Positions 23,411 through 31,370 of a stretch of DNA of 31,370 bases are shown one piece after another (the first letter of the stretch is position 1; each line of letters begins with the position of its first letter). Source of the stretch: a virus. The notes beneath the pieces are model-generated. The model worked only from the letters and a program-made list of their open reading frames with translations, made no database searches and had not been told where the DNA came from. The DNA lies in IMG/VR virus record IMGVR_UViG_3300044624_002468, positions 1 through 31,370 of that record; one strand, given 5' to 3'. The position numbers were made by a program, and so were the translations under genes.

Positions 23411-23854
23411 ATGTCAGACATTAAAGCAATTAATCTAGCAAGTGCAGCAGCAGAGAAGATGATCGCCGACACTCAGGCCGGCGCACCATATGGCTTTGAA
23501 TCAGAGTCAGGCCGGGCGCTTAGCGTCGAGGCGGTTCTTGCTGAGGTTGAGACTTGGACGGCGGCAGAAGCTGAGATCGCTGGTGAGGCTTGGGTGTCGG
23601 TGCGTGATGGTAGATACGCTGCGGCGTGGGGTGAGGCACGGAAGGCGGGGCGGCACGCGGCGTTGGATGCGGCGTGGGCTGCGGTGAACGGCGCTGCTTA
23701 CGGTGCGGCGTGGGGCGCGGCGCGTGGCGCGGTGCTCGGCGCTGCTTACGATGCTGCGATGTGTGTTATTGTTGGTGACCTTATTTCAGAAGAACACCGC
23801 GAAGTGTTGAATGCTGGCTTGAACGCGGTGCGTGAACATAGGGGCGTGAGCTAA
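23411..23854 (+). CDS. Alanine-repeat family protein, member 1
   Basis: This 147-residue protein starts at ATG 23411 behind GGTTGGA. It has the family layout: an N-terminal segment VEAVLAEVETWTAAEAEIAGEAW (residues about 39-61), an Ala-rich middle with a four-residue rhythm (AALDAAWAAVNGAAYGAAWGAARGAVLGAAYDAA), and a C-terminal block CVIVGDLISEEHREVLNAG then LNAVREHRG. The extra 38 residues before the Trp motif are specific to this copy. Five relatives lie at 26274, 27552, 29370, 30438 and 30931. It is the first gene of the rightward arm, and its stop overlaps the next ATG (TAATG). Function is unknown; an all-helical fold is likely from the alanine spacing. Confidence 0.8.
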   Translation: MSDIKAINLASAAAEKMIADTQAGAPYGFESESGRALSVEAVLAEVETWTAAEAEIAGEAWVSVRDGRYAAAWGEARKAGRHAALDAAWAAVNGAAYGAAWGAARGAVLGAAYDAAMCVIVGDLISEEHREVLNAGLNAVREHRGVS

Positions 23855-24066
23855 TGTCGTCTATCTCCAAGCCCGTGTTCTACTACCGGGGCAGGCGTTA
23901 TCGTGTCAATGTGATAGACACGGTAGCGGCAATAATGTTACTTGCAATTGTTTTATTTTTGCCTATATTTAATCAATGTAGTGGCGGAGATAATCTACTT
24001 TGTACAGTCAATAATTCTAATGGCTGGTTATCCACTCACTACTATTTTTTCACAATTAGCCGGTAA
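23854..24066 (+). CDS. Small single-span membrane protein, 70 aa
   Basis: ATG 23854 overlaps the stop of the alanine-repeat gene, so the two are probably translated together. The sequence begins with a basic segment (SSISKPVFYYRGRRYRVNV), followed by one clear membrane helix at about residues 21-39 (IDTVAAIMLLAIVLFLPIF) and a polar tail with two cysteines (NQCSGGDNLLCTV), possibly outside the membrane. The positive-inside rule places the N-terminus in the cytoplasm. I do not recognise the family. It could act at the host envelope during infection, but no direct evidence is visible. Confidence 0.6.
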   Translation: MSSISKPVFYYRGRRYRVNVIDTVAAIMLLAIVLFLPIFNQCSGGDNLLCTVNNSNGWLSTHYYFFTISR

Positions 24067-24086
24067 GGCTGAAAGGCGGGTTTATT

Positions 24087-24371
24087 ATGCGTAAGGTTTT
24101 CTGCTCACCATATGAGGCGATAATAACAGAGATTCAAGATTCTTTGTGCGGCCACTATGCGACCATGGATGAGATGAGAGAGATATTCGATTCCACATAC
24201 AGTGCAGCGTCAATGCCTGACGGTCACATCGGGTTTACTATGGCGGTGCCGCTTGAAGAGTATTACGATCATGTCGAGTATGTGCTTGAGCGTGATTCTG
24301 TAGGGCAGACTATGGAGGAATATTTCGCTAATGTTAATTCGATCTTAGAAGATGGTGGGAGTAATGAATAA
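24087..24371 (+). CDS. Hypothetical acidic protein, 94 aa
   Basis: The ATG at 24087 has AAGGCGGG upstream, a good ribosome site. The protein (MRKVFCSPYEAIITEIQDSLCGHYATMDEMREIFDSTYSAAS...) is acidic and mostly helical by appearance, with a Glu-rich second half (EEYYDHVEYVLERDSVGQTMEEYFANVNSILEDGG). No cofactor or nucleic-acid motif is evident, and I do not recognise the family. The gene lies 20 bases after the membrane protein and overlaps the next gene by eight bases, so it belongs to the same rightward operon. Confidence 0.65.
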   Translation: MRKVFCSPYEAIITEIQDSLCGHYATMDEMREIFDSTYSAASMPDGHIGFTMAVPLEEYYDHVEYVLERDSVGQTMEEYFANVNSILEDGGSNE

Positions 24372-24645
24372 GTTTCAGTCACGCAATTTCGATAAGTTTG
24401 ATAGACGCGTACTGCCTGCATTACAGGTTAGGCAGGGTATGAGGTTGCAGGTGTCGCCTAGTAATTTAAGGACCGGCGTTCTGCCTTCTGTACCTTCTGG
24501 TCGTATTTTTAATGCGCAGGTGACGCGGGTTTCGCTGGGTGTAGATTCTGTGATTGTGTCTGTGGATGTTGCCGGCCTGGGTGTGCATAATTTTAGTATT
24601 AAGCCTGGGAGTAAGCTTGCTGTCGGTGTGAAAGTTTACTCGTAA
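24364..24645 (+). CDS. Hypothetical basic beta-rich protein, 93 aa
   Basis: I take ATG 24364 (GGTGG five bases upstream); ATG 24352 in the same frame would add four residues. The protein is basic: MNKFQSRNFDKFDRRVLPALQVRQGMRLQVSP, then a probable beta domain (IFNAQVTRVSLGVDSVIVSVDVAG, GVHNFSIKPGSKLAVGVKVYS). The strand pattern would suit a small barrel, but I cannot name a family. It overlaps the acidic protein upstream, so the two may be coupled; the acidic/basic pairing hints at possible interaction, which is speculation. Eleven bases separate it from the next gene. Confidence 0.6.
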   Translation: MNKFQSRNFDKFDRRVLPALQVRQGMRLQVSPSNLRTGVLPSVPSGRIFNAQVTRVSLGVDSVIVSVDVAGLGVHNFSIKPGSKLAVGVKVYS

Positions 24646-24656
24646 GGGTTGCTGCT

Positions 24657-25094
24657 GTGAGAATATATGGCGATGTTGCTCCGGTGTCGCGGTTGCTTGA
24701 TTGTCCTGATCCTGCTATTGCTTTGCATAGGATTGAGACTGTGATTGTAGCTGATCTTGTTTGTATCGGCTATGTTTCTTCTGAGTTTCTCGATCTTGTT
24801 TCTTGTGCGCTGCCGGTGTGTGGGTTTGCTGCTGTGTATGACAGGATTGTTGCCTGTGTTTCTCGCGTGTATGGTGGTCGTTTAGGTGGTTGCGATTCGC
24901 TGTTTTTGTTTCTGTTTTCTGCTTATGGGTGGGCTGTGAGTGATCTTAAGCGCGAGGGCATTGATCGTATGTTTCGTAGTCCTGGCTATGGGTTTATTCC
25001 GGTGCCTTATCCGGTGCCTGCTATGGATCTGGTGGGCGTGGGGTGTGTTTTAGCGGCTATGTGTGTTGGCTATGTGGGTTTGCCTACAGAGTAG
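24657..25094 (+). CDS. Hypothetical protein, 145 aa, Cys-containing
   Basis: The start is GTG 24657 with AAGGG 12 bases upstream. The sequence opens MRIYGDVAPVSRLLDCPDPAIALHRIETV, has several Cys and aromatic residues (SCALPVCGFAAVYDRIVACVSRVYGG), and ends with a hydrophobic stretch (AMDLVGVGCVLAAMCVGYVG, about residues 121-140) that could be a membrane anchor or a buried helix. I do not recognise the family. It is the last gene of the compact group 23411-25094; after it comes an untranslated stretch of more than 400 bases. Coding is supported by codon rhythm and tight spacing. Confidence 0.55.
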   Translation: MRIYGDVAPVSRLLDCPDPAIALHRIETVIVADLVCIGYVSSEFLDLVSCALPVCGFAAVYDRIVACVSRVYGGRLGGCDSLFLFLFSAYGWAVSDLKREGIDRMFRSPGYGFIPVPYPVPAMDLVGVGCVLAAMCVGYVGLPTE

Positions 25095-25540
25095 TATCTG
25101 GCCCGTGTCGCGTTCAATGTCTTATCTTGTCTGGTGGGTGACATATTTGTTAGTGGCAGGCAGGCAGTCGGATAGGTGGTCTGGGATCGGATTGGTAAGT
25201 CTGGTGTGCTTATCGCCTAGAGCGCTAAGTCCGGGATAATTAATATTTCGGCGCGCCACTCGACCTGCCAGAAACGCGGAGGCAAGCGCCTGGGCATTGG
25301 CTTCTGAGTTGTGGATCTATCGCGCCTCCGTGGACCGTTCTGCTCTGAGGTTGTGTCGTGTATTGCGTCTTGATGGGTGTGTGGCGGCTTGGTGTGTGTT
25401 GTTGCGCTCGCCGCATTGGTTTGTGTGTGTTGGTGTTGGTGTTGGTGTTGGTGTTGGTTGCTTTCCGTGTCGTGTGCCGCCCGGGTTTGTGTCGGTTTGT
25501 GTTTATTTTGTTTAATTAATGTTTAATATTGGAGTTTCTT
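25095..25540. other. 446-bp stretch without a convincing gene
   Basis: No well-supported gene is seen. A possible structured segment is bounded by CGGAGGC (25277-25283) and GCCTCCG (25323-25329), seven complementary bases around a 39-base interior. There is an eight-base palindrome GGCGCGCC (25251-25258) and a tandem six-base repeat of GTTGGT type at about 25433-25459. One open frame (25297-25515) crosses that repeat and has a poor start, so it is not called. Confidence 0.4.
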
Positions 25541-25699
25541 ATGATTTCTTTGTTTGTTGTTTGTGGTTTCTTTGTCGCGATAGTGCTGCTCGGGATCGGG
25601 TCTTCTAGATTTTTTGGTGTTGATGCGAGCACGGTGACTTTGGCTATTTCGGCTTTTGTGAGTGTTTTTACACTGGTTTTAATTGTGTCTGTTTCTTGA
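25541..25699 (+). CDS. Small two-span membrane protein, 52 aa
   Basis: ATG 25541 has GGAG seven bases upstream. The 52-residue product has two hydrophobic helices, residues about 2-21 (ISLFVVCGFFVAIVLLGIG) and about 31-51 (TVTLAISAFVSVFTLVLIVSV), joined by a short loop (SSRFFGVDAS). Two-span proteins this small occur among phage holins, antiholins and superinfection-exclusion factors; nothing here separates those options. It stands alone between two untranslated stretches. Good ribosome site, clean two-helix hydropathy and an in-frame stop support it despite its length. Confidence 0.6.
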   Translation: MISLFVVCGFFVAIVLLGIGSSRFFGVDASTVTLAISAFVSVFTLVLIVSVS

Positions 25700-25749
25700 G
25701 TTTTTGTTTTGTGTTTTCTGTGTGTTTGCTGGGTGTGTTTTGCTTTTTT

Positions 25750-25788
25750 GGGTGAAAAAATCGTTTTTCGCCCCCGCCCGGCGAAAAG
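25750..25788. other. Mutually exclusive hairpins
   Basis: GGGTGAAAAA (25750-25759) can pair with TTTTTCGCCC (25764-25773), with one G-T pair. Alternatively TTTTCGCC (25765-25772) can pair with GGCGAAAA (25780-25787). The shared middle arm means that only one hairpin can form at a time, as in an attenuator. Neither has a classic T-run. Confidence 0.4.
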
Positions 25789-26044
25789 TGTATTAATTGT
25801 ATTAGACTTGATAGACTTTGTGTATTTTACCTTGTCTATATGGTCTAGTACTACTTAGACTTTTTTGTATGTGTGTACGTGAGTTTTACTGTTTTGTGTA
25901 GCGGATGGTTGAGACAGTTTTTTTTGTCGTGTTTGGTTGTTTTTTGCCTGGTGGGGTGCGGTTTATGCTTGGTGCTCTCAGCTGCCGTGGGTGTTGTTTT
26001 TGTGTTTTTTTTGAATTTTCATGTCGCACAGCTTTCGTGATGCC

Positions 26045-26067
26045 ATTGATACTAGACTACTGAGACA
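26045..26067. repeat. TGAGACA element, copy 1
   Basis: This 23-base element reads ATTGATACTAGAC then TACTGAGACA and matches 26142-26164 at 19 of 23 positions. The same ATTGA...TGAGACA frame recurs after the -10 of the 26201-26229 promoter, with a one-base length difference. It is probably an operator or a decayed promoter-proximal sequence. Confidence 0.6.
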
Positions 26068-26096
26068 CCTACTTTCTCGCGGATCATAGACGCTCT

Positions 26097-26138
26097 GTCT
26101 AAAGTATGGTAGATTTTTTGTCCAAAGTACGGTAGATT
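26097..26138. repeat. Two 19-base direct repeats, 23-base period
   Basis: GTCTAAAGTATGGTAGATT (26097-26115) and GTCCAAAGTACGGTAGATT (26120-26138) differ at two positions, both pyrimidine exchanges. Spacing of about two helical turns suits adjacent protein binding sites. The TAGATT at each end could also serve as a weak -10. Confidence 0.65.
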
Positions 26139-26141
26139 CCC

Positions 26142-26164
26142 ATTGATCCTAGACCAATGAGACA
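26142..26164. repeat. TGAGACA element, copy 2
   Basis: This second copy reads ATTGATCCTAGAC then CAATGAGACA, 97 bases from copy 1. It directly follows the second 19-base direct repeat. Confidence 0.6.
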
Positions 26165-26200
26165 ACAATTCTCGCGACACGCCCGGGATACACCTAAAAG

Positions 26201-26253
26201 TTGCGCCACCTGCTTTAGGTGGGTAATGTATTGAGTACAAGGTCAGTGAGACA
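26201..26253 (+). promoter_or_regulatory. Promoter with dyad spacer and conserved initial transcribed region, copy 1
   Basis: TTGCGC (26201-26206), a 17-base spacer (26207-26223, CACCTGCTTTAGGTG dyad) and TAATGT (26224-26229) are followed by a 24-base segment ending GTCAGTGAGACA. The -10 and downstream segment match the copy at 26859-26911 at nearly every position. The ATG of the alanine-repeat gene lies 20 bases after the conserved block, behind GAGGGGAAG. Confidence 0.7.
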
Positions 26254-26273
26254 CGAAATGAGGGGAAGAAATA

Positions 26274-26846
26274 ATGTCATTAACCAAAGCTGGGGCGCAC
26301 CGGAAAAGCTACCGAGAAGCGCACACTGCGCCCAGCCGCTTTAGCCGCGACGGCGAAGACTATAAAGAATGGTGCACCGAAGCCGACGCGAGTGGCTGCA
26401 CACTACACGAATGCGAAATATGCGAAATATGCGAAATATGCGAAATATGCGAAATATGCCACAGTGACAGTGACAGTGACAGTGACAGTGACAGTGAAAT
26501 ACTTAGCAAGGCAAAAGCCGTCGTCCAATACGGGCGCGGGTGGAGCAAAGAGGAAGAGCAGCTAGCCGCAGCAGCTAGCGGGCACGACAGCCACGACGAC
26601 GCATGGAGAGCAGCGCACACCGCGGCAGTATCAAGTGCGAGGATTGCAGGGTTCAGGGCAATCCGTAAAGAATGCTCTGACGCAATTATCGGCCAAAGTA
26701 AAATTTCCAAGCTTGCAAGGTTGTCTTTAGAAGATGCGGCAATTGCTACTTTGTTGTGTGACTTGCTGTCGGCTGATGAGATTGCGCAGTTGATGGCTGG
26801 TGTTGAGGCTGTTCGTGAGCATCGTGCAGAGAGTGCGGTTAAGTAA
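26274..26846 (+). CDS. Alanine-repeat family protein, member 2, with CEIC and SD repeats
   Basis: ATG 26274 follows a strong GAGGGG site. This longest member (190 residues) has an added N-terminal region. It contains CEICEICEICEICEIC (about residues 47-62), a run of cysteines every third residue, then an acidic SDSDSDSDSDSE stretch. The family part begins about residue 78 (AKAVVQYGRGWSKEEEQLAAAA), has a short Ala/His middle (AWRAAHTAAVSSARIAGF) and ends DAAIATLLCDLLSADEIAQ...AVREHRAE. Regularly spaced Cys and Asp suggest metal binding, which is inference. Nine- and six-base tandem repeats encode the runs, so copy-number change would keep the frame. It has its own promoter (26201-26229). Confidence 0.75.
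   Translation: MSLTKAGAHRKSYREAHTAPSRFSRDGEDYKEWCTEADASGCTLHECEICEICEICEICEICHSDSDSDSDSDSEILSKAKAVVQYGRGWSKEEEQLAAAASGHDSHDDAWRAAHTAAVSSARIAGFRAIRKECSDAIIGQSKISKLARLSLEDAAIATLLCDLLSADEIAQLMAGVEAVREHRAESAVK
26412..26456 (+). repeat. Nine-base tandem repeat, five copies (TGCGAAATA)
   Basis: Five perfect copies of TGCGAAATA encode the Cys-Glu-Ile run. The unit is a multiple of three, so slippage would change the number of cysteines without breaking the gene. Confidence 0.95.
26461..26496 (+). repeat. Six-base tandem repeat, six copies (ACAGTG)
   Basis: Six perfect copies of ACAGTG encode the Ser-Asp run directly after the Cys run. Expansion or contraction would stay in frame. Confidence 0.95.
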
Positions 26847-26858
26847 TGTCCGAAAGTG

Positions 26859-26911
26859 TTGACAGCCCTAATTTAGGGCGCTAATGTATTAAGTGCAATG
26901 TCAGCGAGACA
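26859..26911 (+). promoter_or_regulatory. Promoter with dyad spacer and conserved initial transcribed region, copy 2
   Basis: TTGACA (26859-26864, full consensus), a 17-base spacer (26865-26881) and TAATGT (26882-26887) form the best promoter in the window. The first 15 spacer bases, GCCCTAATTTAGGGC, are a perfect dyad. The 24 bases after the -10 repeat the copy-1 block, ending GTCAGCGAGACA. A repressor bound to the dyad would block the polymerase. The gene starts at 26945 behind GGAAG. Confidence 0.85.
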
Positions 26912-26944
26912 AGCTAAGTTACTACAAGAAAGTTGGAAGATAAA

Positions 26945-27271
26945 ATGACAACCACAGCAGCAACCACAGCACAAGCAAACGCGGCAGAAAAACTCAGAAA
27001 ATTCATGACGGCAGGTACAAAAGTATGGGCGAGCATACAGCACGTATCGCAAAGCGGCATGACCAAATGGGTGCGACTCTCAATAGTCAAAGATGACAAC
27101 ATCATCGACATTACATACGCCGCCGCGCACATCATCGGCACCGGATACTCACTAAAGTACGGGGGGTTGAAGATGAGCGGCGCGGGCGTGGGTATGGGCT
27201 TCTACGCCGTCTACCTGCTATCACTAGAGTTGCACGGCGACGGTGACGCGCTGAAGCACCAGAAGTTCTGA
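26945..27271 (+). CDS. Conserved phage protein with SGMTKW and GMGF motifs, 108 aa
   Basis: The start is ATG 26945 with GGAAG upstream, rather than TTG 26933, which would lie on that site. After a low-complexity Thr/Ala start the protein reads VWASIQHVSQSGMTKWVRLSIVKDDNIIDITYAAAHIIG, then YGGLKMSGAGVGMGFYAVYLLSLELHG. This order ('HVS-SGM-R/K', 'hydrophobic DIT', 'GG-KVSG-GM-MGF--VY-LS') marks a widespread family of small phage and prophage proteins of unknown biochemical role. The usual D of GMDMGF is G here (GVGMGF). It is the first gene of the transcript from the 26859-26887 promoter, 45 bases before the next gene. Confidence 0.75.
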   Translation: MTTTAATTAQANAAEKLRKFMTAGTKVWASIQHVSQSGMTKWVRLSIVKDDNIIDITYAAAHIIGTGYSLKYGGLKMSGAGVGMGFYAVYLLSLELHGDGDALKHQKF

Positions 27272-27316
27272 TAATAAAAACATTACGAAAAACAAATAGT
27301 AAAAGGGGTGTAGGAC

Positions 27317-27565
27317 ATGCGACAGATAAATGAAAAACAAACAGTGGTATTCACCGGGCTAGGGACGCATAAAGCGATGTGGTATTGCACGTGTGGGGCG
27401 TACACAGAGCTCGAACCGCTCGAAGACTTTAACAGCGGGAACATATCGCACGGTAATACAGCACGGGCTCGCGCGGTCAGATCAGCACAAAAACATGCCG
27501 AAAAACATATTAAGGCGGGCACGCCGGCAGGTTGGGTGAAAGGGGTAAAAAGTGAGTGGTCTTAA
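27317..27565 (+). CDS. Small possible zinc-binding protein, 82 aa
   Basis: ATG 27317 follows AAAGGGGTGTAGGAC. The sequence has WYCTCGAYTELE (residues about 22-33, a CxC pair) and later ARAVRSAQKHAEKHIKAG (residues about 50-67), giving HxxxH. C-x-C plus H-x3-H is consistent with a compact zinc-binding fold, seen in several small actinophage proteins; that is family-level inference. The final residues (GWVKGVKSEWS) overlap the start of the next gene by 14 bases, so the two are probably coupled. It belongs to the operon starting at 26945. Confidence 0.6.
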   Translation: MRQINEKQTVVFTGLGTHKAMWYCTCGAYTELEPLEDFNSGNISHGNTARARAVRSAQKHAEKHIKAGTPAGWVKGVKSEWS

Positions 27566-27941
27566 ATATGGGGTAAATACTGTAGCGGTCGAGGCGGTTA
27601 TATCTGAGGTTTGTTCTTGGACTGAAGAAGAGGCTGAAATTGCTTCCGATGCGTGGGAGGCGTTGCCATATGAGGCGTGGAATGTGGCGCACAATGCGGC
27701 GCGTGGTGCGGTGTGGTCTGCGACGGAGGATGCGGTGTTGGATGCGGTGTTGGATTCGGCGCGTTCTGCTGCGTGGGATGCTGGGCGTGAGGCGGCGTTG
27801 GAGGCTGCGTCGGATGCGGCGGTGTGTGCTGTGGTGTCTGATCTTATCCCCGAAGAGTACCAAAAATTGTTGAATGTTGGGGTTGAAGCGGTGCGTGAGT
27901 TTCGTGGGTTAGATGCTGGTGTTTGGCGTGGTGTTGAATGA
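27552..27941 (+). CDS. Alanine-repeat family protein, member 3
   Basis: GTG 27552 lies inside the end of the previous gene, with AAGGGG upstream. The 129-residue protein is compact: MSGLKYGVNTVAVEAVISEV, CSWTEEEAEIASDAW (Trp at about residue 22), an Ala-rich middle with Trp and Asp (AWNVAHNAARGAVWSATEDAV, then SAAWDAGREAALEAASDAA), and the end CAVVSDLIPEEYQKLLNVG then VEAVREFRG. At DNA level its first 32 bases and its C-terminal block closely match member 5 at 30931, while the middles differ. Function is unknown. The four-residue alanine rhythm suggests packed amphipathic helices. Confidence 0.78.
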   Translation: MSGLKYGVNTVAVEAVISEVCSWTEEEAEIASDAWEALPYEAWNVAHNAARGAVWSATEDAVLDAVLDSARSAAWDAGREAALEAASDAAVCAVVSDLIPEEYQKLLNVGVEAVREFRGLDAGVWRGVE

Positions 27942-28024
27942 AAGAATTTTGTTTGAAGTTGGTTTGAAGTAACTTAATGTAAGTAAAAAAATTTTGTTTA
28001 ATTTTTAATGTTTAGGGGTTTGTT

Positions 28025-28750
28025 GTGAAAGAGTTTTCGTTGCCGCTGTCTGCTTTGATGTCGATTGAGACGCTTGGCGCTGTTGTGAGTAAGGATAAGA
28101 ATGATTTTGTTGGTATAAAAAAAGTTAATGTTGTTGTTTCTAGTGTTGGTTGGCGTGCTATTGCTACTGATAAGTATGTTGCTGGTGAGGTGTCTGGTGA
28201 TTTTTTGGGTAATGATGGTTTGGGTGATGATGTTGTGAGTTTTTGTGTTGAGCCTTCGTTGTTGAAGATGGTGGTTTCTGCTGTGAAGGTTTCGAGGGTT
28301 TTTCGTGATTTTCGCGGTGATGTTGGGGGGTTTGATTTGGGTTTGCGGCTTGATGGTGGTGTGTTGGTGTCGGTTGATGGTTGCTTTGGTGATGTTGATG
28401 TTGATGTTGATGTTTCGCCTATTTTTGATAAGGCTCGTAGGCTTCTTGCTGATTTTAGTGATTGTGATGATAGTTCTGGTAGTAATTTAGCTGGTTATTT
28501 TGTTTTGCCTATGGTTGCTTTGGCGAAGTTTGGGAAGGTTAAGACTTCTGATGAGGTTTTGCGTAGGGGTGTTGATCCTGCTAAGGCTGTTGTTTTTTAT
28601 CCTAGCAAGAGTTTTTCGGATAGTTTTGGGGGTGTTGGTTCGCCGTCTGGTCTTTTGCATGTTTTTTTTGCTGAGACTAAGGCTAATCGTGGTGATGTTT
28701 CTGTTTTTCGTGGTGCTATGGTGTCTCGTTCTTTGAAGGTTTTGGGGTGA
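28025..28750 (+). CDS. Sliding-clamp-like protein (putative)
   Basis: GTG 28025 follows TTTAGGGG. The 241-residue protein has a beta-clamp flavour: LPLSALMSIETLGAVVSKDK, then VNVVVSSVGWRAIATDKYVAGEVSGD, which resembles the 'v-ATD-yrla' strand pair of DNA polymerase III beta subunits and phage clamps. VSFCVEPSLLKMVVSAVK follows, and later SPSGLLHVFFAETKANRG. An Asp-Val run (DVDVDVDV, about residue 123) sits in a loop. Length is shorter than the three-domain bacterial clamp (about 370) but near that of phage clamp-like proteins. If correct it would tether a phage or host polymerase. The match is by pattern only, so confidence is moderate. Confidence 0.5.
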   Translation: MKEFSLPLSALMSIETLGAVVSKDKNDFVGIKKVNVVVSSVGWRAIATDKYVAGEVSGDFLGNDGLGDDVVSFCVEPSLLKMVVSAVKVSRVFRDFRGDVGGFDLGLRLDGGVLVSVDGCFGDVDVDVDVSPIFDKARRLLADFSDCDDSSGSNLAGYFVLPMVALAKFGKVKTSDEVLRRGVDPAKAVVFYPSKSFSDSFGGVGSPSGLLHVFFAETKANRGDVSVFRGAMVSRSLKVLG

Positions 28751-28826
28751 TTTTTGTGTTTGTTTTTTGGGTTGGTTGATGGTTTTTGTGTTGGGTTCTC
28801 GCCGAATATTTTTTGGGTGGTGTTTC

Positions 28827-28997
28827 ATGTTTTTGGGTTTTCTTTTTTTTGGTTTTGTTTTTTCTTACGCTGTTTGTTCCTTTTCTTTTATTCTTTTTGT
28901 TTTTTTTGATGTTGAATGTGAACACGTTGTTTTCGTTTCTTTTTATTCTTGTGTCACTTTATTGTTACTTTCTGCTATTTTTTCTGTTTTACTTTAA
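28827..28997 (+). CDS. Small hydrophobic membrane protein, 56 aa (uncertain)
   Basis: ATG 28827 has GGGTGG six bases upstream; a same-frame ATG at 28779 would extend it. The product is almost wholly hydrophobic, with one helix at about residues 1-26 (MFLGFLFFGFVFSYAVCSFS), a polar link (DVECEH) and a second helix at about 33-56. The stretch is so T-rich that any frame looks like a membrane protein, and a competing frame (28786-29010) exists, so this call is tentative. It sits next to another small membrane protein, suggesting a pair. Confidence 0.35.
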   Translation: MFLGFLFFGFVFSYAVCSFSFILFVFFDVECEHVVFVSFYSCVTLLLLSAIFSVLL

Positions 28998-29012
28998 GGC
29001 TTGGGGTTAGTT

Positions 29013-30027: not shown

Positions 30028-30437
30028 TTTTTAGCATTTGTGTGAATATTTTTTGATTATATTTTTGTTTGTTTAGTTTTTGATTGGGCTTGGGGTGGGT
30101 TTGGGGTGGGCAATGTTTTTTAATTTTGTTTAATGTTTTTTGATTATTTTTTATTACAATAGGGTTTCTATAAAGTCGGTTCCAATGATTTTGTAGAAAA
30201 TAAAACTGTGCGTGATTTGGTTGCGTTATTTGGTTAATGCGTGTTCTGCTGCTTTACCTCACGTCAATAAAAATAAGCATTTCTCTAGGGCTTCGACAAG
30301 CAGTGCTGTTTTTTATGGTGACAGGTTGTATCCTAATGACGCATATACCATTGCGAGGTATAAGTTTTCTGGTTTTGGCGGCGGTCAAGTTTTCATTTTC
30401 TTGGCCGCCGCTTTTTTAATTTTTGGAGGATCAAGTT
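30028..30437 (+). ncRNA. Candidate structured leader or small RNA ending in a terminator
   Basis: This 410-base stretch has no convincing gene. A possible -10 TACAAT lies at 30155-30160 with no good -35. From about 30165 the DNA changes from T-rich filler to mixed sequence up to the strong terminator at 30378-30417, giving a possible RNA of about 250 bases. It may be a free small RNA or an attenuated leader for the alanine-repeat gene starting 21 bases later. A short hairpin (GCGTTA with TAATGC) lies near 30224-30240. The frame 30212-30466 runs through the terminator and is not called. Confidence 0.4.
30378..30417 (+). terminator. Strong rho-independent terminator
   Basis: A 12-bp stem (30378-30389 with 30400-30411, one G-T pair, seven consecutive G-C pairs at the base) and a ten-base loop are followed by TTTTTT (30412-30417). 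It terminates rightward transcription just 21 bases before the start at 30438. Confidence 0.92.
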
Positions 30438-30827
30438 TTGAGCAAAAAAATTTTCAGCAATGTTGACATTGTTGGTTCGCCGACAGAAATTTCTGCCGGT
30501 GTTTTGGAGTTAGTTTCAACCATTGAAGGCTGGTCTGAAGGCGATTGCGATGTCGCCTTAGCTGCGGCCAGGAATTATGATGCTTTTTATGTTTTTTCTG
30601 ATGTTTCTGATGCTAGGTTTGCTGCGCGTTGCGCTGCTCGTGGGTTTGGTAGGCATGTTTTTTGGCATAATGCGCGTAGTGTTGTTCCTGAGCGTGTTAG
30701 GGGTGTTGTTTATGATGCTGTTTTGGGTGTTCTTGTTTCTGATTTGTTGGCTGGTGATTTGGTTGATTCTTTGATGGTGGGGGTTGATGCGGTTCGTTTT
30801 GGCCGTTTGGTTTCTGGTGATTTTTAG
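30438..30827 (+). CDS. Alanine-repeat family protein, member 4
   Basis: TTG 30438 is chosen because GGAGGA lies seven bases upstream; the TTG at 30423 would sit before that site. The 129-residue protein reads MSKKIFSNVDIVGSPTEISAG, then VLELVSTIEGWSEGDCDVALAAARNYDAF, a shorter Ala/Arg middle (DARFAARCAARGFGRHVFW) and the C-terminal block YDAVLGVLVSDLLAGDLVD then VGVDAVRFGR. It keeps the Trp-Ser-x-Gly/Glu start and the DLL...AVR end of the family but has few alanine repeats. It begins 21 bases after a strong terminator, so its expression depends on read-through or on regulated antitermination. Confidence 0.75.
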   Translation: MSKKIFSNVDIVGSPTEISAGVLELVSTIEGWSEGDCDVALAAARNYDAFYVFSDVSDARFAARCAARGFGRHVFWHNARSVVPERVRGVVYDAVLGVLVSDLLAGDLVDSLMVGVDAVRFGRLVSGDF

Positions 30828-30938: not shown

Positions 30939-31370
30939 TCTTAAATACGGTAAAAATACTGTGCAAGTCGAAGCGGTGTTGGCTGAGGTTGAGACATGGA
31001 CGGCAGCGGAAGCGAAAATCGCTGGTGCGGCGCGGGATGCGGCGCGGGGTGCGGCGATGTACGCGGCGGGGGATGCGGCGCGGTATGCGGCGGGGTATGC
31101 GGCGGGGGATGCGGCGCGTGATGCTGTTTTGTGTGCTATCGCGTGTGATCTTATCCCCGATGAGTACCAAAAAGTGTTGAATGTTGGTTTGAATGCGGTG
31201 CGTGAGTATCGTGTAAAGAAGGAAAATGCTTCCGCGCACGGCGACACGAGGAGGCGTGCGCTTGCTGAGTGGGCGCGGAAGCGTGCAAAAAAGGCGCGCA
31301 AGAAGGCCGAAAGATCAGGGGGAACGGTGCACCAGTATGAGCGTGCGGACATTCTTGGAGAAATTGCTGA
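30931..31370 (+). CDS. Alanine-repeat family protein, member 5, with basic / HNH-like extension, cut by window end
   Basis: GTG 30931 follows GGGGAG, and the frame is open to the window end (146 codons). The N-terminus (MSDLKYGKNTVQVEAVLAEV, ETWTAAEAKIAG) is followed by the most regular alanine repeat, units of AARDAARGAAMYAAGDAARY type from GCG-rich 12-base DNA repeats. The C-terminal block is VLCAIACDLIPDEYQKVLNVG, then LNAVREYR. Unlike other members it does not stop there: a basic helix follows (RRRALAEWARKRAKKARKKA) and then GGTVHQYERADILGEIA, which recalls the lead-in of phage HNH endonucleases ('y-r-dI-er'). The HNH core, if present, lies outside the window. Confidence 0.7.
   Translation, partial: MSDLKYGKNTVQVEAVLAEVETWTAAEAKIAGAARDAARGAAMYAAGDAARYAAGYAAGDAARDAVLCAIACDLIPDEYQKVLNVGLNAVREYRVKKENASAHGDTRRRALAEWARKRAKKARKKAERSGGTVHQYERADILGEIA
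31027..31121 (+). repeat. 12-base GCGGCG-centred tandem repeat
   Basis: GCGGCG recurs about every 12 bases, separated by CGGGAT, CGGGGT, GGGGAT, CGGTAT and GGGTAT type units, encoding Ala-Ala-x-x. It is a G+C-rich island in an AT-leaning region, which suggests growth by slippage or unequal recombination. Confidence 0.8.

Follow-up and report, generated by a model that had tools for sequence, protein, structure and literature searches.

The window, a virus record of 31,370 bases, carries two related sites 658 bp apart. We read them, with a probability of roughly 55%, as two dispersed phage promoters, each with a dyad operator inside the spacer between the -35 and -10 hexamers. The paired sites most likely belong to an already known type of control element, of which they are a neat but ordinary example. 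The features discussed are the following:

26043..26068, plus strand: repeat m1, CCATTGATACTAGACTACTGAGACAC, upstream of site 1 within the leader; has GAGACA in common with the sites, kinship putative
26140..26165, plus strand: repeat m2, CCATTGATCCTAGACCAATGAGACAA, in the same leader; kinship to the sites putative
26191..26198, plus strand: extra half-site CACCTAAA, forming a perfect 8-bp inverted repeat with TTTAGGTG at 26214-26221, with 15 nt between
26201..26206, plus strand: weak -35-like hexamer of site 1, TTGCGC (consensus match only)
26207..26221, plus strand: spacer dyad of site 1, CACCTGCTTTAGGTG, operator-like, an RNA hairpin in the rival reading (dyad scan, shuffles, folding)
26224..26253, plus strand: -10-like TAATGT of site 1 with the conserved block that follows it, as far as GAGACA (found twice in the window against 0 expected)
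26274..26846, plus strand: 190-aa ORF downstream of site 1, its C-terminal part weakly like phrog_8332 (E 0.0035)
26859..26864, plus strand: -35-like hexamer of site 2, TTGACA (consensus match)
26865..26879, plus strand: spacer dyad of site 2, GCCCTAATTTAGGGC, with perfect 7-bp arms (dyad scan, shuffles)
26882..26911, plus strand: -10-like TAATGT of site 2 with the conserved block that follows it, as far as GAGACA (found twice in the window against 0 expected)
26945..27271, plus strand: 108-aa ORF downstream of site 2, like phrog_12365

Site 1 (26201-26229) reads TTGCGC-CACCTGCTTTAGGTGGG-TAATGT and site 2 (26859-26887) reads TTGACA-GCCCTAATTTAGGGCGC-TAATGT, both with a 17-bp spacer. The dyad of site 2 is perfect (7+1+7). 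That of site 1 is 5+5+5, or 6+5+6 with the final -35 base added, and its two inner pairs are broken. Dyads as good as that of site 1 (arms of at least 5) are found in 1.7% of the window's 17-mers, and dyads as good as that of site 2 (arms of at least 7) in 0.08%. The first-pass annotation had described both 17-base spacers as dyads, and we confirm this. Both are real dyad features, because only 4.5e-5 of 200,000 joint permutations of the 17 columns gave dyads in both. The core CCT-N5-AGG and the downstream block are common to the two copies. The 30-bp block from TAATGT to GAGACA, TAATGTATTRAGTRCAAKGTCAGYGAGACA, occurs only at 26224 and 26882, with 0 expected from shuffles, and the copies are identical at 26/30 positions. 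The twin TAATGT sites and their 658-bp distance thus stand as first described, but the description of the next 24 bases as almost perfectly alike was generous (20/24 identical). Weak dyads also lie inside these 24 bp, TGTA-N5-TACA in site 1 and TGTC-N5-GACA in site 2.

Between site 1 and site 2, two outer dyad pairs are changed at both bases (C-G/G-C and A-T/C-G) and complementarity is kept. The matched outer-arm changes noticed earlier are real. On its own this compensation is weak and no more than suggestive: at least two compensating pairs arise from six random substitutions on a perfect dyad with P = 0.025, a statistic resting on two copies (n = 2). The extra half-site CACCTAAA supports the compensation signal, since it matches site 1's own variant. 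CACCT is present in all three half-sites of site 1, including the one at 26191-26198, and GCCCT in both half-sites of site 2. Finding this 8-mer in the 56 nt upstream of site 1 has P of about 0.003 by shuffling.

The hexamers of both sites lie at the standard spacing of 17 bp, the -35 of site 2 is a perfect TTGACA, and a dyad sits between -35 and -10 in both. In the seven intergenic intervals examined, from about 23.1 to 30.4 kb, these are the only two promoter-like sites (16-18 bp spacers) with a dyad arm of at least 5. The hexamers are otherwise poor. TAATGT matches TATAAT at 3/6 positions, as does the -35 of site 1 against TTGACA, and neither site passes a sigma-70 scan, which itself shows no excess of sites over shuffles. 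Comparing the copies, the block that follows the -10 is also better conserved than the -35, which is unexpected and counts against a promoter if the conservation reflects RNA polymerase contacts.

From the sequences, their symmetry and their duplication we infer promoter activity, repression and a regulator that binds the dyads. The promoters (TTGNNN-17-TAATGT) would serve small-gene groups, and the spacer dyad would be an operator bound by a dimeric regulator that probably represses by blocking RNA polymerase. Both copies would go back to a single ancestral element, with half-sites that changed in step (CACCT versus GCCCT), and they may differ in affinity or in the regulator bound. The conserved 24 bp after the -10 probably provide extra regulator contacts or a shared 5′ leader.

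Similar architectures are known or predicted in other phages. The ESAS of the cluster K mycobacteriophages (Adephagia, TM4, Pixie) are dispersed intergenic elements of about 47 bp that precede small genes (PMC3203893, PMC11373665). Adephagia has seven ESAS promoters with hexamers 17-18 bp apart and an inverted repeat proposed to bind a regulator (PMC11373665), and the ESAS half-site consensus differs between subclusters at the same repeat positions (PMC3203893, PMC11373665). The sites in the window share with ESAS the inverted repeat, the dispersed intergenic position and the small genes downstream, as well as the spacing of the SigA-like hexamers, which is 17 bp in both sites here, with weak hexamers in site 1. 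The two differ in several respects. In ESAS, each repeat is 15-17 bp long and the spacer varies, whereas each site here has one 15-bp dyad, with arms of 5-7 bp, inside the promoter spacer. ESAS are mostly paired with a 13-bp SAS at the start codon, and we found no match to the SAS, GGGATAGGAGCCC (13 bp), at the downstream starts or elsewhere in the window with up to 2 mismatches. The ESAS consensus variants are spread across subclusters, whereas both variants here are in one genome, in two copies only. By this comparison the element would work like the ESAS promoters but is not one, given the absent SAS and the dyad within the spacer.

Gordonia phage Turuncu (L094, 2218-2247) has TTGACA-CCGGTTGACGTCAACCGG-TACATT, in which a perfect 18-bp palindrome exactly fills the spacer between standard hexamers. 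Its sequence is unrelated to that of our sites, and it is likewise a prediction from sequence. TTGACGTCAA is found again in Turuncu near 2366 and 4985, before other genes. On contig L016 (1868-1896), the promoter-like TTGCAC-ACTATAGTTATAGTGTG-TAGAGT is overlapped in its -35 and spacer by a 20-bp palindrome-like sequence, CACACTATAGTTATAGTGTG. The architectures of Turuncu, contig L016 and the Adephagia ESAS count in favor of promoters with operators in the spacer.

The interpretation in the first-pass annotation is partly supported: promoters with an operator-like spacer dyad are the best reading. Its proposal that the variants are recognised by different dimeric regulators is unproven: none of the window genes scanned was recognised as a DNA-binding regulator, the copies number only two, and a single tolerant regulator would explain them equally well. 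A single regulator with a different affinity for each copy, the variants forming a timing series and not two specificities, is a possible sub-case of the promoter reading that we hold tentatively. The CCT-N5-AGG core and downstream block common to both sites are consistent with it, and the operators of one repressor commonly vary. Against it, the symmetric change of both half-sites exceeds the usual random drift, but weakly. If the variants do bind different regulators, this one phage would show, on a small scale and in nature, how operator specificity can split after duplication. The Microbacterium-phage-like terminase of the window (see below) and the lack of a recognised regulator do not settle the choice between promoter and RNA element.

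The main rival, which we consider unlikely, makes the repeated unit an RNA element whose transcription starts upstream. Like HK022 put or lambda nut, it would influence either the polymerase during elongation or the translation of the following gene. Its parts would be the spacer dyad as hairpin 1, UGUAU-UNA-GURCA as hairpin 2, and a 3-bp stem, GUC/GAC. As RNA, hairpin 1 is CACCUG(CUU)UAGGUG in site 1 and GCCCUA(AUU)UAGGGC in site 2; hairpin 2 is UGUAU(UGA)GUACA and UGUAU(UAA)GUGCA, respectively. RNAalifold, given the two copies only, predicts three stem-loops in which 14/14 pairs are kept, with two double compensations and two one-sided changes with G-U. The variable stem pairs at alignment columns 22-26 and 39-47, not Watson-Crick in the DNA reading, are of the G-U type. 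Of 1000 column shuffles of the 65-nt alignment, 3 reach the consensus energy (P of about 0.003), and conservation extends far downstream of the -10. Against this, a DNA dyad folds as RNA anyway, so the RNA signal is not independent. The double changes of the consensus fold are confined to hairpin 1, the longer elements, folded as single sequences, do not stand out (z -0.9 and -1.1), and a search of Rfam gave no match at gathering thresholds. An RNA element would also make the TTGACA-17-TAATGT spacing coincidental.

As in HK022 put and lambda nut, there are two copies in what would be early transcripts, with small stem-loops. The stem of site 2, GCCCU/AGGGC, is presumably the same as the lambda boxB stem, a lead only, but its loop, AAUUU, is not like the GNRA-like boxB loop. 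The put stems are far longer than the stems here. HK022 nevertheless has two-copy, two-stem elements of about 70 nt, and a -10-like sequence lies within putL as well (PMC9378689). A narrower version of the idea is less probable still: in this actinobacterial phage, two copies of an RNA element of about 50 nt, each a boxB-like hairpin with the conserved block behind it, would provide a put/nut-like signal for antitermination or a leader function, and their stems would have diverged by compensatory changes within one genome. Were the sites an RNA element, they would add a put/nut-like signal to a phage group in which, to our knowledge, there is no known example.

It is quite unlikely that a short intergenic segment was simply duplicated, leaving site 2 as a functional promoter and site 1 as a decaying copy with matched changes by chance. 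In favor of this, site 1 has a poor -35 and a broken dyad center, and the compensation taken alone is weak (P 0.025, n = 2). Site 1 nonetheless retains arms of 5-6 bp and a third matching half-site upstream (P of about 0.003), and the joint dyad probability of 4.5e-5 from column shuffling also argues against decay.

Selection on a hairpin or cruciform had also been suggested. The hairpin is viable as RNA, where G-U mends the stem pairs that are not Watson-Crick, but not as DNA, and a cruciform is unlikely, as established DNA physics makes one improbable in 15-bp dyads with a 1-5 nt center. A coding explanation of the sites fails, since the two copies have no open frame in common that runs through them, and their differences follow no codon-position pattern. 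Two other kinds of site were considered and rejected. The cluster A stoperator, a 13-bp asymmetric site like GATGAGTGTCAAG, is absent from the window with up to 2 mismatches. DtxR-type boxes carry their half-sites in the orientation opposite to these dyads.

The window is part of an actinobacterial virus. Its terminase shares 64% identity with the terminases of the Microbacterium phages Jacko and vB_MoxS-ISF9, and a terminase search of bacterial genomes returned distant Chloroflexi relatives only. Structural genes are on the minus strand, and small genes are on the plus strand from about 23.4 kb. Region 24000-29000 had no DNA-level relative among 50,697 phage records (megablast). Against phage records, BLASTN of the leader returned nothing and BLASTN of site 2 a single short partial match, in an Enterococcus phage record. 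Scans of IMG/VR with four exact patterns gave either no matches or matches lacking the dyad or shared context; the stray matches lie inside genes and are apparently due to chance. In IMG/VR, protein-guided searching uncovered relatives of neither the site-2 gene nor 28025-28747, and comparison of terminase-guided loci and phage regions found no second copy of the element. A covariance model (R1) run on the window and 18 related records scored well only on the window's own two copies.

The leader upstream of site 1 has repeats of its own. Repeats m1 and m2 form a two-copy repeat, CCATTGATMCTAGACYAMTGAGACAM, each copy followed by TTCTCGCG, in a non-coding leader. Profiles built from this pair or from the two sites fail to rank the other pair, and a single motif family of all four is unproven. 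A weaker m1/m2-like site is located on the minus strand at 25854-25832, and the leader contains a 23-bp tandem duplication, TGTCYAAAGTAYGGTAGATT, at 26087-26136.

The ORFs downstream of both sites have plausible start sites. The ATG of the 190-aa ORF (26274) is 45 bases after site 1. Site 2 lies just past the end of this ORF and about 58 bases before the ATG of the 108-aa ORF (26945), whose homologues in Curtobacterium, Microbacterium and Gordonia phages lie at or close to the start of a series of small genes that follows a non-coding gap. The claim that each site drives a different small-gene group is partly right. We found no terminator between the gene at 26274-26846 and site 2 (26859), so transcripts from site 1 probably continue into the second gene group. 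Short ORFs overlap the sites: a 12-codon ORF (26846-26884) in site 2 only, and a two-codon frame, ATG TAT stop, in both. The latter lies at 26226-26234 and 26884-26892, ends in TGA in one copy and TAA in the other, and is just past the AGG-bearing dyad arm. These frames resemble a minigene and may be due to chance.

The 190-aa ORF contains in-frame perfect tandem repeats at 26411-26497, ATGCGAAAT x5.4 and then ACAGTG x6.2, which encode (CEI)n and (SD)n tracts. It belongs to an alanine-rich paralogue family (23411-23854, 26274-26846, 27552-27941 and 30423-30827) that matches phrog_8332 with E from 5.6e-12 to 0.0035. Several of the paralogues have a 12-base period, and a DNA-level copy is also found at 30967-31213.
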